A stretch of 20,118 nt of DNA from a virus, in IMG/VR virus record IMGVR_UViG_3300033145_001171, positions 1 to 20,118 of that record; one strand, 5' to 3'. Shown piece by piece: positions 2,710 through 16,541 of the stretch. The stretch's first letter is position 1; every line of letters starts with the position of its first letter. The notes beneath the pieces are model-generated. The model worked only from the letters and a program-made list of their open reading frames with translations, was not told where the DNA came from and made no database searches. Position numbers and translations under genes: made by a program.

Positions 2710-3148
2710 TTAACTTCACCTCGATCCTCTCCTGCGTTCCTATTACAGGTACTGCAGTAAACGCTATATACATTTCATCTCCTTGCCACTCAAAAGAAAA
2801 ATCCCGGACCACTTCCGTCCGAGGGTCGACCAGCAGGGCCTCCGTGATCACCCGCTCCAGCTCCGCTTCAATGGCTTTTCTGGATGGCTGCTTCAGTGCC
2901 TGCTCAAGCTCTGCCCCGTAATCATCGCTATAAATCACGTGAGCGAACCGCTCCGTCAGGACGGCCTTCACGCACCACTGCGCCCAGGCCTGGTACCCGT
3001 CAGCTTCCACCACACGGCCAGCGCCACCTAAAACAAAGTCACCCTTCTCAAAATCAAAAAGCCAGCTTTTCCCGTATTTTGGAGCTGGCTCTGTTTGTTG
3101 TTGCTCAACTACTTCCGGCATCTCGAAAAAAGGATATAAGCTTGGCAT
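2702..3148 (-). CDS. xkdS: Baseplate wedge protein, XkdS/DUF2634 (gp25/gpW-like)
   Basis: The 148-residue protein has the DUF2634 layout: a variable proline/glutamine-rich head (MPEVVEQQQTEPAPKYG), then WLFDFEKGDFVLGGAGRVVE, the conserved GYQAWAQWCVKAVLTERFAH, VIYSDDYGAELEQALKQPSR, and the gp25-like strand region RTEVVRDFSFEWQGDEMYIA. These proteins nucleate sheath assembly at the baseplate together with XkdT. The ATG starts immediately after the XkdR stop, with GGTGAG about nine bases upstream. Its end overlaps the XkdT GTG by eight bases, and the XkdT ribosome site GAGGTGA is inside it. Confidence 0.93.
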   Translation of the reverse strand: MPSLYPFFEMPEVVEQQQTEPAPKYGKSWLFDFEKGDFVLGGAGRVVEADGYQAWAQWCVKAVLTERFAHVIYSDDYGAELEQALKQPSRKAIEAELERVITEALLVDPRTEVVRDFSFEWQGDEMYIAFTAVPVIGTQERIEVKLSA

Positions 3149-5182: not shown

Positions 5183-5767
5183 CTATTTAAGCCATTCCTT
5201 CTTGTTGCGGGCCGGATCAGATCGAAAAACGCTGCGCCAGAACCTGAACTCCTCCACCACGAGGTTGTCTTCCGGCTCCTCGTCTTCCTCTCCGGGTTGT
5301 ACTACCGCTGTAAACCTCTGGTCCAGTTCCTTGAAAATCGTTCGGGCTATCTTTTGGCCCTCTCCCCAATCCCATAGCTGACCCTTGTAGCCCATGGTGA
5401 TCCGCACTTCGCACGACCCTTCCGGCCCTGGAATTACCACAATGGATCCTTCATAGCCGGAGAGCATCGTCACAGTCGAACGGGTCTTGAATACCACCAG
5501 GCCCGCATCCTTGTTGGCATTCTGTAACCTGTGGCCCAGGTCGCTGACGATCCGCAACAACGCCTCAAACAGGTCCTCTCTGGTCGCCCGGTAAACCCTG
5601 CTGGTCATGCTCTGCCTAGAACTACCCGGTGGATTAAGCGAGCCGGTAATACTACTTATTATGCCAGCAATGATGACTATCACGAGCAAGGGACCGGCGA
5701 TAATCCACGCCCCGGGAATGGCCATGCCCACGAGCACCAACAAAATCGCCGCAAGTAGCCACTTCAT
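5183..5767 (-). CDS. Membrane-anchored hypothetical protein inserted in the tail operon
   Basis: The 194-residue protein starts MKWLLAAILLVLVGMAIPGA and has two hydrophobic stretches (about 3-18 and 21-41) separated by a short PGAW turn, so it should be anchored in the cytoplasmic membrane with its main domain facing the cytoplasm. Residues 56-155 form a mixed alpha/beta domain (YRATREDLFEALLRIVSDLG, DAGLVVFKTRSTVTMLSGYE, EVRITMGYKGQLWDWGEGQK), then an acidic stretch (PGEEDEEPED) and a basic end (RNKKEWLK). The domain resembles small domains found in membrane-anchored or lipoprotein-like hypothetical proteins, but I do not recognise a named family. Standard PBSX-like modules go directly from tape measure to XkdP, so this is an insertion. 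A phage-encoded membrane function, for example superinfection exclusion, is possible but unproven. Confidence 0.8.
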   Translation of the reverse strand: MKWLLAAILLVLVGMAIPGAWIIAGPLLVIVIIAGIISSITGSLNPPGSSRQSMTSRVYRATREDLFEALLRIVSDLGHRLQNANKDAGLVVFKTRSTVTMLSGYEGSIVVIPGPEGSCEVRITMGYKGQLWDWGEGQKIARTIFKELDQRFTAVVQPGEEDEEPEDNLVVEEFRFWRSVFRSDPARNKKEWLK

Positions 5768-5814: not shown

Positions 5815-8121
5815 CTACCGTTGTTGCGGCATATTCCTGTAGGCACCTTCGGCACTATCTGCAATGTCCCAAGCAATCTCGTCCGCGATAGCCTTGCGAT
5901 GTGCCCGGATGACCCGCAGTACGTCCTGCCCGTCCGTGGCGGTCACGTTGAATGTAACGTTAATCGGCCCAGCGCTGATGATAGCGGAAGCGCCCGCAAA
6001 AGCAGGAGCGGCCAACGGCACGGCGCCAAGCCTCCGCCCCGTCTCCGCCCAGAGCCCCAGGGCCCGGTCCCGCATCCTGGCGGAGAGCGGGATAATAGCT
6101 TCAGGACCGGCTTCGGCTATCAAAGCTAAGTGCGGACGATCGTATATCCCGCCCACGGCCCGCTTAGCAGGGCCAATACTGGTGCCGCCGTACATGGGCT
6201 GCTGGATGCGCTTTTCAGGCGGCAACCAGCGGTTCGCTTCCCACTGCAAGTACTGGTGCCGCTCGAATTCGGTCCAGGCGCGGGCCTGTTCGGCTATTTT
6301 GCGTTCGGCATAGGCGGTAGTCCCTTTAACCTTGGGTGCGACGTACTCTGTCGCCGTTTCGGCCCCCTTGACCACCCAGGGCGTTGCAGCGATCCCGCCG
6401 CCTACCAGGACTTTCGCCCAAATCGGGCCAGGGGTCTTACTTCCTACCCAGGCGCCCAGCAAGGCTGCGGTTAAGGGATCGCTCTTAATAGCCTCCCATA
6501 AGCCCTGAATTACTCCCTGGCCGAGTTGCGCTCCCAGCTTGGCGCCCACTTCGGCCATCTTGGGGACTACCTGCCGATCTACCTCCTCGATCAGGATGAG
6601 CAACTTCCCCGCCCAGTCAGCTTTCTGCCAGTCCTCGCGCCTGGCGAGCTGGTCGAAGAATGCCTTGGCTTTCTTGTAGACCGCTTCAAACCGCTCTCCA
6701 ATCTCGCGGCCTGCCCGCTGCAGCTTGGCCTTGAACGCTTCGAATTTCTCCCCTGTATAGTCGCTCCAGCCCACTATGTCCAGCAGTATTCGCTTCACCG
6801 GCCCGGCCATGCCGGTGCCGAAGTTCATTACCACTAGGTTAGCCGTGTCCTTCACCGTGGACACGAGGCCCAGTAAGCTCTGCGACATTTTCTCCATACC
6901 GCCTGCAAAGTTCTTTTCTAGAGCCCGAATAATGGCTTCCATGGCGACCTTGGCCGAAATACCCTGCTTACCTAGATCCTGCAAGGCGTCACCCGTGAGG
7001 CCGAGCTCCTTCAGCACTATGTCCATGGGAATCAAAAGGTTCTCCGTCACTTGGCGTAGTTCTTCCATCTGCAGCTTACCCATCGTTCCGATCTGCCGGA
7101 AGCCGAGCAAAGCCCGCTCCATGCCTTCTATGCCCGCCCCGGTAAACCCGGCGGCGTCACCAAAGGCCGTGATGGAACGGATCGTTTCGTCCATCGCCTT
7201 ATCGACGCTGTACATGTTCTTATACAGTGGCATCAAACCCGTAGCTACATCCCGCACTTGGGCGAACTCGAAGGGCGTCCTAGCAGCGAACGCCTGCAGG
7301 CGTTTCAAAAAGTCCATTCCGCGTTCCGCGCTCTCTGTGAAGTACTCCATGGCGATCTGCGCCTGTTCCATTTGCCCGGCCAACTTTAGCGGGTATGCTA
7401 TCGTCGCCGTGGCCCCTAATCCGCCGATACCGACACCCAGCAAACCGAGCGGACTGGTGATCAGCCTGCCGATCCGCCCTATTGCGCTGGTTATCCTATC
7501 TTTTGCTTGGAGGGTGATAGTCCACACCCGGCCCGTTAGCCCCCGTAGCGTGGTCATAACCACCCGCGCCCTGGCCGTTACCCTGTCGCGCAAAGTCACC
7601 TGCGGTTCCGCCCTGACCCGGTCCAATTGTCGGGCTACCGTCATAGCCCGGGTGAGCTGGCCGTACAACTTACCCCGCAGTTCCGCAACCGGCGCGGATT
7701 TCATCTTGCTCAATGCCACCAGCGCGGTCCTGGCTTCGTTAATTTCGTCCTTCAGCGGACCTTTCAAGTCGGCCAGCACATCGATCTGCCCTTTATCCAG
7801 GGCCTCAAGAACCCGGTTAATCCGCAGTACCACGGCAGAGATCCGATCCTGCGCCGCGAGGACAGGGGCAGCCTGCTCTGCGCCCAGCGTTTTGACCAGT
7901 TTGTCCGCCTTGAGCACGCCGGCGGTGAGCTTGTCCCGCACCCGCATGATGGGCTCGATGCGGAGCTTGGCAACCTGCTCGAAGTGCTTGCGCGTCATCT
8001 CGGTTCGCCGCCGGGCCTCTTGCTCGAAGCGGCTCACCCGTTGCCCGGCCTGCTGCAACGGCGCCTCGGTCTGATCCTCCACGATTATCGGGATCTCTAT
8101 TCTATATACCTCGGCTGCCAC
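5815..8121 (-). CDS. Tail tape measure protein
   Basis: This 768-residue protein sets tail length and is later expelled with the DNA. Residues 15-215 carry a loosely repeated motif (EDQTEAPL 15-22, RDKLTAGVL 62-70, QDRISAVVL 91-99, RDRVTARA 178-185, KDRITSAI 207-214). Residues 219-245 are a hydrophobic glycine-rich segment, and 245-440 match the tape-measure N-terminal domain (MEQAQIAMEYFTESAERG, AFAARTPFEFAQV, ELRQVTENLLIPMDIVLKEL). The end contains FxxxGGxxxxPxxALIAEAGPEAIIPL-type motif (DRPHLALIAEAGPEAIIPLS) common at tape-measure C-termini. At about 1.5 angstroms per residue, tail length would be near 115 nm (inference). The start is GTG, preceded by AGAGGGG. No lysozyme or peptidase domain is seen. 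Confidence 0.94.
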   Translation of the reverse strand: MAAEVYRIEIPIIVEDQTEAPLQQAGQRVSRFEQEARRRTEMTRKHFEQVAKLRIEPIMRVRDKLTAGVLKADKLVKTLGAEQAAPVLAAQDRISAVVLRINRVLEALDKGQIDVLADLKGPLKDEINEARTALVALSKMKSAPVAELRGKLYGQLTRAMTVARQLDRVRAEPQVTLRDRVTARARVVMTTLRGLTGRVWTITLQAKDRITSAIGRIGRLITSPLGLLGVGIGGLGATATIAYPLKLAGQMEQAQIAMEYFTESAERGMDFLKRLQAFAARTPFEFAQVRDVATGLMPLYKNMYSVDKAMDETIRSITAFGDAAGFTGAGIEGMERALLGFRQIGTMGKLQMEELRQVTENLLIPMDIVLKELGLTGDALQDLGKQGISAKVAMEAIIRALEKNFAGGMEKMSQSLLGLVSTVKDTANLVVMNFGTGMAGPVKRILLDIVGWSDYTGEKFEAFKAKLQRAGREIGERFEAVYKKAKAFFDQLARREDWQKADWAGKLLILIEEVDRQVVPKMAEVGAKLGAQLGQGVIQGLWEAIKSDPLTAALLGAWVGSKTPGPIWAKVLVGGGIAATPWVVKGAETATEYVAPKVKGTTAYAERKIAEQARAWTEFERHQYLQWEANRWLPPEKRIQQPMYGGTSIGPAKRAVGGIYDRPHLALIAEAGPEAIIPLSARMRDRALGLWAETGRRLGAVPLAAPAFAGASAIISAGPINVTFNVTATDGQDVLRVIRAHRKAIADEIAWDIADSAEGAYRNMPQQR

Positions 8122-8778
8122 CGCGCCCCGCCCCTCTTTCTAGCCTCTTCTCTTCGTCTTCAGTCTCGAGTTGTACCCGCATGGAAGCCATCATAAAAGC
8201 CCTAACCTTGTAAGGCTTTGCGTAGAACTCATCGGGAGGAATGCCAAGACGTTGAAAAATATGGTGTAGTAACGCCGCTCGCCCCCCGGCTTTTATGAGT
8301 TTTTTAATGCTTCTTCGGTCGTTTCTGCTTCCTCGTTCGCGTAGCCGCTCAGTTTCTCGATCAGCTCTATCGCCTTATCTTTTTCGCCCCGCTTCAGAAC
8401 TTTGTCCACTAATTGCCAACCAGAAACCACTTTTGCCTTATTCCACAGATCCTTGTTATCCCAGATGGCCCTGCGGTCGTCCGAATGCGTGGCAGTATAG
8501 ATCACCAACGAATTGAACTTCGCGACGTTAAACTCTCTAGGCACGGCCAGGCTCCCCAGCCTGCGGTCTTTGGCCATCTTTGTAGACTGGTCACGGCACT
8601 TTTCAAACTCTTCGTCATCTAAACCCCGCACCCTGAAAGAGAACAGCTTTTTACCGTCCCTAGCCACTTCAAAAACTTCATACGTTGTAATGGTCTCCAT
8701 GGCCTCCAGGACACCGCCCACGTCCTTGAGAACCGTATTTTCAGCCTCAAGCAGCTCATCTTTCTTTACCTCGTCCAT
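8102..8778 (-). CDS. Tail assembly chaperone, long form made by -1 frameshift
   Basis: If ribosomes slip by -1 on A AAA AAC (8305-8299), translation passes the zero-frame stop and reads 65 more residues to a TAG at 8104-8102, giving about 225 residues. The added part reads LIKAGGRAALLHHIFQRLGI, then PPDEFYAKPYKVRAFMMASM and RVQLETEDEEKRLERGAGRG. The 'FYxxPxxxRAFMMAS' pattern is the familiar C-terminal half of tail chaperones (the T part of lambda gpGT-type fusions), and it has no start codon with a ribosome site of its own, so fusion is the natural reading. It ends 20 bases inside the tape measure gene, overlapping its GTG start. Known for many tailed phages; here deduced from sequence only. 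Confidence 0.85.
8293..8778 (-). CDS. xkdN: Tail assembly chaperone, short form (XkdN-like, zero frame)
   Basis: The 161-residue zero-frame product matches XkdN-type chaperones: a helical acidic N-terminus, VFEVARDGKKLFSFRVRGLD, EFEKCRDQSTKMAKDRRLGS, FNSLVIYTATHSDDRRAIWD and WQLVDKVLKRGEKDKAIELI. Chaperones of this kind coat the tape measure before tube proteins polymerise around it and are not part of the finished virion. Its stop (TAA, 8295-8293) comes six bases after a slippery heptamer, so it is the shorter of two products from this locus. The ATG has GGAGGGATAAC directly upstream. Position between tube and tape measure is diagnostic. Confidence 0.93.
   Translation of the reverse strand: MDEVKKDELLEAENTVLKDVGGVLEAMETITTYEVFEVARDGKKLFSFRVRGLDDEEFEKCRDQSTKMAKDRRLGSLAVPREFNVAKFNSLVIYTATHSDDRRAIWDNKDLWNKAKVVSGWQLVDKVLKRGEKDKAIELIEKLSGYANEEAETTEEALKNS
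8299..8305 (-). other. -1 ribosomal frameshift slippery site A AAA AAC
   Basis: On the minus strand the zero-frame codons are GCA TTA AAA AAC TCA TAA, which contain the X XXY YYZ heptamer A AAA AAC in register. It is one of the most efficient bacterial -1 slip sites. The zero-frame stop is two codons later. A GC-rich tract with a possible weak 4-bp stem (GCCG 8290-8287 with CGGC 8277-8274) begins about eight bases downstream and could assist. Confidence 0.85.
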
Positions 8779-8790
8779 GTTATCCCTCCG

Positions 8791-9237
8791 TTATTGATTA
8801 TGCCCGCGCAGTACGCCCATGAAGTTCAGCACCGCATCAGGCTCACCTTTTTTCAGCCCCGCAATCACTTTTTGCAGAATCCGGGCATCTTTGATAACTG
8901 TCTCTGTAAATGTAAGAGTAACAGTATAGCTCTGCGGAATAGCCCAGGTTAATTTGCTACCCGCCGGCTGATAATCTGTATTGGTGAAATTAACCTGCGC
9001 CTGCCAGGTATTAACCTCTGCGAGAAAATTACCGTCACCGTCATACAACTCTCCATTGTAACCCCGGAGGATACCTCTTGGGTCAAAAGTGCCGCTGTCT
9101 AAAAGCTCCTGCAGGTCGGGCACATCATTCACCCGGAAGGACCATGCTCTACTAACAATGTCCCCTGAAGACACGTTCGCAATATCAATAGCTCCGTCGG
9201 GTACACAGTTCCTAAAGATATAGCGTCCGTCAGACAT
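8791..9237 (-). CDS. xkdM: Tail tube protein, XkdM family
   Basis: The 148-residue protein forms the inner tube through which DNA passes. It has the size and pattern of XkdM-type tube proteins: variable start, LQELLDSGTFDPRGILRGYN, GDGNFLAEVNTWQAQVNFTN, then YQPAGSKLTWAIPQSYTVTL with the paired strand FTETVIKD and the C-terminal helix ARILQKVIAGLKKGEPDAVL. It follows the sheath directly, the usual order. The ATG is preceded by GGAGGTGA at eight bases. Twelve bases separate its stop from the chaperone start. Confidence 0.93.
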   Translation of the reverse strand: MSDGRYIFRNCVPDGAIDIANVSSGDIVSRAWSFRVNDVPDLQELLDSGTFDPRGILRGYNGELYDGDGNFLAEVNTWQAQVNFTNTDYQPAGSKLTWAIPQSYTVTLTFTETVIKDARILQKVIAGLKKGEPDAVLNFMGVLRGHNQ

Positions 9238-9251
9238 TTAGCTCACCTCCA

Positions 9252-10685
9252 TTAAGCCGCTAAAGTCGGGCTAAATGAAAACCCGAAAGTGATGTAAACG
9301 TGTTCTGCGCTGTCAAGATCATCTACCTGCACCACAAACCAAGCACTGTCGCCGGCTGGTGGGTTGTTGGGGTCTTCGTAGATAGTCCCGGCCAACAGCG
9401 CTCCTTCTACAATCATCTGGTTAATAATCCCCTGGGCTGTAGCTATCAAAGTTGCTCTGCCGTCTGCATTGTTGTTTACTTTGCCTATTAAGGGATCCCA
9501 GGTAGCCGTAATACGGTCAATCAAGTTGTCTCGCGTTTTCACTCTACGGATTTTCTTCCAGCCGGCATCATGGTCAGCGTCAGGCGTTACAAAAGTATTG
9601 ATGCCGTATTCAATATGCACCTGCTTCTGTGCCGACATAGTAAATACCAGAGCGCCAGACTGGATAGCCTGCTCTATTTCGGCATTAGTGAGTGCGCCAA
9701 CCAGTTCCGTGGCATTACGGACGACCGCATGAGTAAGGCTATCGGTAATCTCCGCCGCCGCTACCATGCCGGCCACCCGGGCCGCGGCCTGGTAGCCTTC
9801 TCTAGTTGTGCCGTCAGCATACTTGAAACCGTTTGCCACGTAGATAATTGCATAGTCATTGAACGCTGCTGCGTTGGTCAGCCTGGTTGCCAAAGCAACA
9901 CTGGTCGGCTCTCCTATTACGGCCAGAACTCGCTTACCTTCACTGCGTACCCGGTCAATATAAGTCTGCACTGTAGCGTGGGTCGCTGCGTCTTCACTGT
10001 CCACAGCTAATACGTTCCAATCTAAAGCTTCAATTGCCGTTAAGCCGTTACTATAATCTTCACCGGTTACCGTGGGGTCAGTCCCGCCGGTCAGAGCCTG
10101 CTGTGTAACGTCCGCCAATATCCCGTTGCCGTCTGCAAGTTTAGTAGCAGTTATCCAGGGACTATCGGAAGCTGTCACCGCGTCCACCAGGTCCTGTGGT
10201 TCAGTGCTCCCTTTAGCGAAGGTTATCGTCTGCCGCAGGGTGGTCCCTTCATAGACCAGCAGTTCCCGCTCGGTCGCCGGATTGACAAGAGAATCTCGAA
10301 CGGTCACCTTAAAATCATTACCCCTGGTGCCTTCATACTTTGCAGTTATAGTTACTACGTCTAAGGGAGTTGTATCAGTATCCTTGAGCGTAATCGATGC
10401 TTTTGCACCTTCACTGCCCAGTCGGTACGCCAGCACCTGCCAGCATCCGCCTTTGAAAGCTTCTTCCGCGGTGTCCAGCGTGCCTCCGCTGCCGTATGTC
10501 GAAATAATCGAGTTGCTGTTCTCCAGTGTAATAACTTCGTTCAACGGCCCCCAGGAAGCTTGTAAGAGTGCCGCCACTACACCTTGCGGGACTACAGCTT
10601 CCGGCGGACCGCCTTCGGAAGTTACCCGGACGTATATACCCGGACGTATTTTGGTTTCGCCTACCTGAAAAGTAGAACCAGCCAT
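9252..10685 (-). CDS. xkdK: Contractile tail sheath protein, XkdK family
   Basis: The 477-residue protein forms the contractile sheath and marks this as a myovirus. It opens with the family start GSTFQVGETKIRPGIYVRVT and VVPQGVVAALLQASWGP, has a central variable region, then EALDWNVLAVDSEDAATHA (domain I), AAAARVAG-type AAARVAGMVAAAEITDSLTH and the conserved C-terminal part INTFVTPDADHDAGWKKIRR, KVNNNADGRATLIATAQGII and the final handshake strand VQVDDLDSAEHVYITFGFSF. Complete and of usual size. The ATG follows GGAAGGTG by eight bases and the tube gene begins 14 bases downstream. Confidence 0.96.
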   Translation of the reverse strand: MAGSTFQVGETKIRPGIYVRVTSEGGPPEAVVPQGVVAALLQASWGPLNEVITLENSNSIISTYGSGGTLDTAEEAFKGGCWQVLAYRLGSEGAKASITLKDTDTTPLDVVTITAKYEGTRGNDFKVTVRDSLVNPATERELLVYEGTTLRQTITFAKGSTEPQDLVDAVTASDSPWITATKLADGNGILADVTQQALTGGTDPTVTGEDYSNGLTAIEALDWNVLAVDSEDAATHATVQTYIDRVRSEGKRVLAVIGEPTSVALATRLTNAAAFNDYAIIYVANGFKYADGTTREGYQAAARVAGMVAAAEITDSLTHAVVRNATELVGALTNAEIEQAIQSGALVFTMSAQKQVHIEYGINTFVTPDADHDAGWKKIRRVKTRDNLIDRITATWDPLIGKVNNNADGRATLIATAQGIINQMIVEGALLAGTIYEDPNNPPAGDSAWFVVQVDDLDSAEHVYITFGFSFSPTLAA

Positions 10686-15200: not shown

Positions 15201-16541
15201 TTACCTCCCGATCCTATTTTTGTTAGACTTTATTTTCGCCTTGTATAAAGACAGCAGCGAGAACCGCTGCTGGGACAACGGTGTTTCTGTGGCCTTGTCT
15301 TCTTTATCTTCCCTGGCCAGTTGATCCAGCACCTCGTTTAAAATGTCCCTCGCCTGCCGGATACGCTGCTCATTGGCAGCAGAGAGGACCCGACCTTCGC
15401 CTTTAGGCTCCGGGAAAAGGGCCTTGCGCAAAGCCAGCCACCGCGCGGCCAGGTCAAGATCAAGGTTGGTATGGTCCCGCAAAATCCGGCTTACCTGAAC
15501 GTACTCCCGCCAGGCATCCTCTTGCTCTTCCCAGGGCGGCGTGCGGTCAAACTGCCGGTAGTGGCTGCCGAGATGGGCCTGTACCTTGCTTACGTCTTCG
15601 CTCGGAATGTCCGACTGGGGCAGTCTTGCCGCCGCGTTCGCCACACCCCGCCATACCACAGCACCATCGGAAGGCCGGTGGTGAGGGAGCTTCAAATCGC
15701 CGAACCTCTCCGGCGGCATGGCGGCGGCCCAGGCGTAGTGGCCCGCTATGCGGCGCTTCTCAGCATCGGATAGGTCGCCCCAGGACTCGTCCGTAAAGTC
15801 AGATAGCGTTGGGGCCTCCCATTCTTCATCTTCCGGGGCCTTTTCGCGGGACACATCTCTGGGCACTACACCGGCAAAAAACTGCGGCATAAAGCGCAGT
15901 CCCGCCGGCACATTGCGAAACCGCGCCAGGTCGAATTCCTGCCCGTTGACTACCAGTTTGCTCCCCCTGACGGTTGCCGCAATCTGTTTGGTTTGCTCAA
16001 TCTCGTCCGCAAAGCCAAGCTCTACTGCTTCTTCCGCGGTCATCCAGGTTTCGGCGTCCATCATCTCAACAATCTTTTCCCGCTCCAGGCCGCTCTTGCC
16101 CTGGTAGGCCACAATAAGGGATTCCCTGATCTTGTCCATGTCGTCAGCCAGCTTGCGGAAATCATCCGCGTTGCCCACGGCGATGGTCCAGGGGTTATGG
16201 ATCATCATCATGGCGTTCTTCGGCATGTAGATCATGTCCCCAGCCATAGCCACGACTGAAGCTATGGAAGCGGCCAACCCGTCCACATAGACAGTCACCC
16301 TGGCCTTGTGCCGCTTCAGTATGCTATAGATGGCCTGGCCTGCAAATATGTCGCCACCGTCTGAATTGATATAGACCCTGATTTCGTCCACATCCCCCAG
16401 GGCGTCCAGGTCCTCTTTGAACTGTTTCGGGGTTACCTCATCTTCCCACCAGCTGTAGTCGCTAATGATGCCGTAGAGCAGGAGCTCACCAGCTTTTGGA
16501 TCGTCGGCTGCGGCCCGGAACTGCCAGAACTTTTTCTTCAA
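15201..16541 (-). CDS. ClpP-type prohead protease with long C-terminal extension
   Basis: This 446-residue protein should mature the prohead by cleaving the capsid protein's scaffolding arm. Residues 20-185 are a ClpP (S14) fold: YINSDGGDIFAGQAIY at 57-72, nucleophile S92 in GLAASIAS, and H115 in MMIHNPW. The segment aligning with the ClpP catalytic aspartate reads AETWMTAEEAVELGFAD, so the acid is probably E164 or nearby D162. Residues 245-335 form a second module (AGHYAWAAAMPPERFGDLKL, then HHRPSDGAVVWRGV and HLGSHYRQF) that I recognise from phage prohead-protease proteins, followed by a charged helical tail. The start is TTG, supported by GGGAGGTGA seven bases upstream; the encoded start KKKFWQF is plausible. 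It sits between portal and capsid genes, as expected. Confidence 0.9.
   Translation of the reverse strand: MKKKFWQFRAAADDPKAGELLLYGIISDYSWWEDEVTPKQFKEDLDALGDVDEIRVYINSDGGDIFAGQAIYSILKRHKARVTVYVDGLAASIASVVAMAGDMIYMPKNAMMMIHNPWTIAVGNADDFRKLADDMDKIRESLIVAYQGKSGLEREKIVEMMDAETWMTAEEAVELGFADEIEQTKQIAATVRGSKLVVNGQEFDLARFRNVPAGLRFMPQFFAGVVPRDVSREKAPEDEEWEAPTLSDFTDESWGDLSDAEKRRIAGHYAWAAAMPPERFGDLKLPHHRPSDGAVVWRGVANAAARLPQSDIPSEDVSKVQAHLGSHYRQFDRTPPWEEQEDAWREYVQVSRILRDHTNLDLDLAARWLALRKALFPEPKGEGRVLSAANEQRIRQARDILNEVLDQLAREDKEDKATETPLSQQRFSLLSLYKAKIKSNKNRIGR

Follow-up and report, generated by a model that had tools for sequence, protein, structure and literature searches.

Programmed -1 ribosomal frameshifting of the lambda G/GT kind is widely conserved among long-tailed phages, in which gpG and gpGT both bind the tape measure protein, the T part being the binding partner of the tube protein (PMC5009743). 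In the GeneTack survey, frameshifting of 6-7% was measured for a cluster of likewise frameshifted tail chaperone genes, termed HK97-like there (PMC3711429), and the phage G chaperones have been named by the same frameshift signature (PMC8570332). For the Paenibacillus larvae phages BN12, Dragolir and others, a G/GT-like frameshift at AAAAAAG or AAAAAAC has been predicted (PMC6003738), and they resemble the locus described here in the predicted frameshift and the heptamer. YqbN (PDB 3klu) and the HK97 protein 2ob9 are both treated as tail assembly chaperones in a passage of PMC9603447 that cites Pell et al. 2013. Two papers in which the name XkdN is used, on PBSX-like particles or C. difficile phages, do not discuss the frameshift. 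Among open-access papers we found none describing a family-wide slip for XkdN/Phage_TAC_5 proteins; the subscription papers Xu 2004 and Pell 2013 may contain it.

The locus studied here is located in a virus record of 20,118 bases, which is termed the window in the following. Genes on the minus strand are arranged in the order terminase, portal, ClpP-like protease, capsid, sheath, tube, chaperone, tape measure and baseplate, i.e., a gene order of the contractile-tail type, and the slip site is flanked by the tail tube gene on one side and the tape measure gene on the other, the placement by which the G/GT type is recognized (Table 1). Very probably, the XkdN-type (Phage_TAC_5) chaperone gene of this contractile-tailed, Firmicutes-type phage is subject to programmed -1 ribosomal frameshifting as in lambda G/GT. 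Unlike phage lambda, the window phage has a contractile tail, and the slip site, G GGA AAG in lambda, reads A AAA AAC in the window. Two other gene products of the window have features of their own: the ClpP-like prohead protease (15201-16541, minus strand) carries more than 200 additional C-terminal residues without a convincing match in Pfam, and a 194-aa protein whose gene is flanked by the tape measure gene and the LysM gene (5183-5767, minus strand) has a hydrophobic N-terminal stretch and no convincing family match in Pfam or PHROG.

Table 1. Features of the frameshift locus and its surroundings; positions are those of the window.
Feature	Position	Strand	Basis
Sheath	9252-10685	-	Part of the order sheath, tube, chaperone, tape measure
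Tube	8791-9237	-	DUF2001, score just under the Pfam cut-off
Zero-frame tail assembly chaperone, gpG-like, XkdN/YqbN type, 161 aa	8293..8778	-	PF08890, phrog_389, 3klu
Slippery heptamer A_AAA_AAC, in register; P site AAA, A site AAC	8299..8305	-	Kept in relatives
Zero-frame stop TAA, one codon (TCA) past the slip	8293..8295	-	Distance of 0 or 1 codon throughout the relatives
-1 extension, T-like domain, 65 aa + TAG; fusion of 225 aa	8102..8299	-	Homologues, pS/pN, model
Weak candidate downstream RNA structure	8245..8288	-	Folding vs. controls
Tape measure protein	5815-8121	-	PF20155, E 4e-24; GTG start at 8121

The zero-frame product is a member of the Phage_TAC_5/XkdN-YqbN family by profile and by fold. 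It matches PF08890 with E 3e-15 (56.7 bits vs. a curated cut-off of 27) and phrog_389 with E 6e-22, and its profile matches the solved structure of Bacillus subtilis YqbN, 3klu, with E 2e-13. The same structure was the top match in the PDB when the predicted chaperone structure was submitted to Foldseek (E 1e-3, probability 1.00), followed by a weak match to the HK97 chaperone 2ob9 (E 0.4). The Pfam model spans the zero-frame part only, so that the -1 extension falls outside it.

The anatomy of the slip site is established from the sequence. As stated in the original prediction, the chaperone reading frame (8778-8293) contains an in-register A AAA AAC at 8305-8299; it ends beside this heptamer, not two codons after it as had been claimed, but with a single sense codon, TCA, before TAA. 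The 3' end of the gene thus reads GCA TTA AAA AAC TCA TAA, a register that fits tandem -1 slippage, and the last residue shared by both products is N160 rather than residue 159. By itself, AAAAAAC is unremarkable, as five copies are present in the window compared with 2.9 expected, and ten in-register slip heptamers occur in the window's 23 genes; only that at 8305-8299 combines the end of a gene with a long -1 reading frame. Chance does not account for its register, for its position next to the stop or for the open -1 frame, which is conserved. When base 8299 is read twice, translation continues as LIKAGGRAALLHHIFQRLGIPPDEFYAKPYKVRAFMMASM... for 65 codons (8299-8105) up to TAG at 8104-8102. 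The predicted length of this frame and its termination inside the tape measure gene, 20 bases into it, were borne out, as was the gene-free stretch of 171 bases that separates the zero-frame TAA from the GTG of the tape measure gene.

From this arrangement we infer that slippage occurs. Most ribosomes would terminate at the TAA at 8295-8293 and release the chaperone of 161 residues, whose expected task is to coat the tape measure protein. On A_AAA_AAC, a minority would move one base back, with tRNA-Lys and tRNA-Asn re-pairing one base upstream, and produce the 225-residue fusion; its terminal three-helix domain is expected, from the example of lambda gpGT, to recruit subunits of the tail tube. 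That frameshifting at the tail chaperone locus is established for many tailed phages, as the original prediction had it, agrees with the review cited above (PMC5009743).

The extension had been called the recognizable second half of a tail chaperone, a description that did not hold: neither Pfam nor NCBIfam models match it, and its sole family match in a search that also covered PHROG is phrog_4503, a family of unknown function (E 4e-4). Matches between the PDB and a profile of the extension included TAL effectors, which were rejected as artefacts of short repeats in which no single stretch reached significance. In an AlphaFold2 model (mean pLDDT 86), three helices are packed into a compact unit; a fold search with it gave no match in the PDB and, in a viral library, only uncharacterized small phage proteins, with J9QD13 of Clostridium phage phiMMP02 as the best geometric match. 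Compared with its nearest relatives, the extension shows 60, 24 and 279 differences at the first, second and third codon positions, respectively, with pS of 0.60-0.84 and pN of 0.03-0.10, and the other two frames show the opposite pattern. Family-wide, 253 pairs gave a mean pS of 0.63 vs. a mean pN of 0.08 and a median dN/dS of 0.07 in the -1 frame. This substitution pattern indicates that the extension is protein-coding in the -1 frame and under strong purifying selection in that frame only. A T-like domain of the tail chaperone is probably the role of phrog_4503; a new name could be given to this family and to phrog_10943, both of which are listed as of unknown function and match the extension that the -1 frame adds to XkdN-type chaperones.

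A conserved coding frame could also belong to a separate small protein that is translated without any slippage, either from a start of its own or by reinitiation. The original prediction had denied the region a start codon with its own ribosome binding site, while an internal ATG at 8194 is in fact preceded by a weak AGGG 5 nt upstream, and short internal ORFs have been annotated at the position of the extension in PBP180 (ORF21), Jimmer1 (gp22) and Lietuvens (ORF17). Translation from 8194 would nevertheless yield just the last 30 residues, with a loss of 35 of the 65 residues including most of the conserved ones, and the conserved block opens at the slip codon (LI.AGG), ahead of any ATG, GTG or TTG in the -1 frame of the window. 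As this explanation also leaves the invariant in-register heptamer unaccounted for, we regard it as very unlikely. The records of phiC2, MismyG, KC5a and phiOH2 leave a gap at the extension, and a joined frameshift product is present in none of the eight annotated records inspected, the eighth being that of Streptococcus phage EJ-1 with its fused ORF, in line with the expectation that a standard ORF call would miss the fusion. The annotation is corrected accordingly: a second chaperone product is absent from the inspected phage records, though its signal is conserved to the same degree as the chaperone.

Conservation was assessed in three sets that overlap in some loci. The first, based on the extension, comprises 146 loci including that of the window, derived from viral contigs, genomes and phage records and corresponding to about 100 distinct loci at 90% DNA identity and to 35 groups below 80% identity. 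AAAAAAC is kept in register at the same codon in all 146, as predicted, and the zero-frame stop follows 0 or 1 codon past the heptamer in every one of them. For more distant relatives, a profile of the extension alignment was run on about 690 Clostridia and Bacilli genomes, the alignment serving as query in place of the phrog_4503 model, which proved too weak to search genomes. A_AAA_AAC was found in 54 of 55 hits, the remaining one (L153) carrying A_AAA_AAG; another candidate, L165, was rejected as a false hit, and two weak earlier hits were not confirmed. The third, reciprocal set was selected with PF08890 and without use of the extension. Among its 60 loci 58 were readable, and 57 of these have an in-register slip heptamer together with a -1 extension (55 AAAAAAC, one AAAAAAG and one AAAAAAA). 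The -1 frame of relatives, in which stops would have spoken against the prediction, is open and evolves as protein, with one shortened copy in the PF08890-selected set (L222, ending after 18 codons). Judged from these sequences, the slip is near-invariant across Phage_TAC_5. Frameshifts of this kind are already known from long-tailed phages, and the near-invariance within this family and the role of phrog_4503 are a small addition.

The same data bear on two further explanations. In the case of transcriptional slippage, RNA polymerase would slip on the A run and the fusion would stem from edited mRNA. Polymerase slippage on A runs is known and the run consists of six A, which is, however, short for efficient transcriptional slippage. 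Moreover, exactly six A precede the C in nearly all loci, whereas lengthening of the run would be expected under selection and is not seen; this explanation appears even less probable than a separate start. That a single gene was split by a sequencing error or recent indel, for which a homopolymer run is a typical place and to which a fused ORF in Streptococcus phage EJ-1 might point, is refuted by the relatives, as the same split, heptamer and stop recur in isolates, MAGs and viral contigs, at about 100 distinct loci. The EJ-1 sequence (L267, 980-1000) has one extra base just 5' of the heptamer compared with MismyG, so that the chaperone and the extension are joined in a single annotated ORF of 198 codons (EJ-1p55). 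This in-frame fusion, which also counts in favor of the programmed frameshift, may be either natural or an artefact of an old sequencing error.

Elements that could stimulate the programmed frameshift are less uniform than the heptamer. In the window, the candidate structure downstream of the slip site folds no better than codon-matched (synonymous) controls (z +0.3), and a longer stretch reaches z -1.3 vs. dinucleotide shuffles. Across 100 loci, the 51 nt beginning 6 nt past the heptamer on average fold better than codon-matched controls (mean z -0.93), with values below -2 in 22 loci; hairpins differ between clades, and no common stem register was found family-wide downstream of the heptamer. 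A single conserved hairpin in which the AGG codons would pair with those for LLH was considered and rejected, being perfect in L003 and L004 and equal to codon-matched controls family-wide. Upstream of the heptamer, at a distance of 5-9 nt, Shine-Dalgarno-like sequence is in excess in the family (z about -4). As the window itself has no strong element of this type 5-10 nt upstream of the heptamer and no exceptional hairpin downstream of it, frameshift efficiency may be low in this phage.

The near absence of A_AAA_AAG, with about one locus per set, suggests that the less shifty heptamer may be selected. We give an even chance to the proposal that Phage_TAC_5 relies wholly on A_AAA_AAC and the adjoining stop, the less shifty heptamer being selected to set the ratio of chaperone to fusion and stimulators being free to turn over between clades. 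With the loci collected here, the question of why a single heptamer is retained amid varying stimulators can be addressed on a large natural collection. Variation is also observed at the distal end of the extension: in L025, a Eubacterium MAG, the extension frame, from about position 3001, meets no stop and continues as the tape measure frame (1053 codons), and in its close relatives L026 and L031 the extension stops after 54-59 codons.
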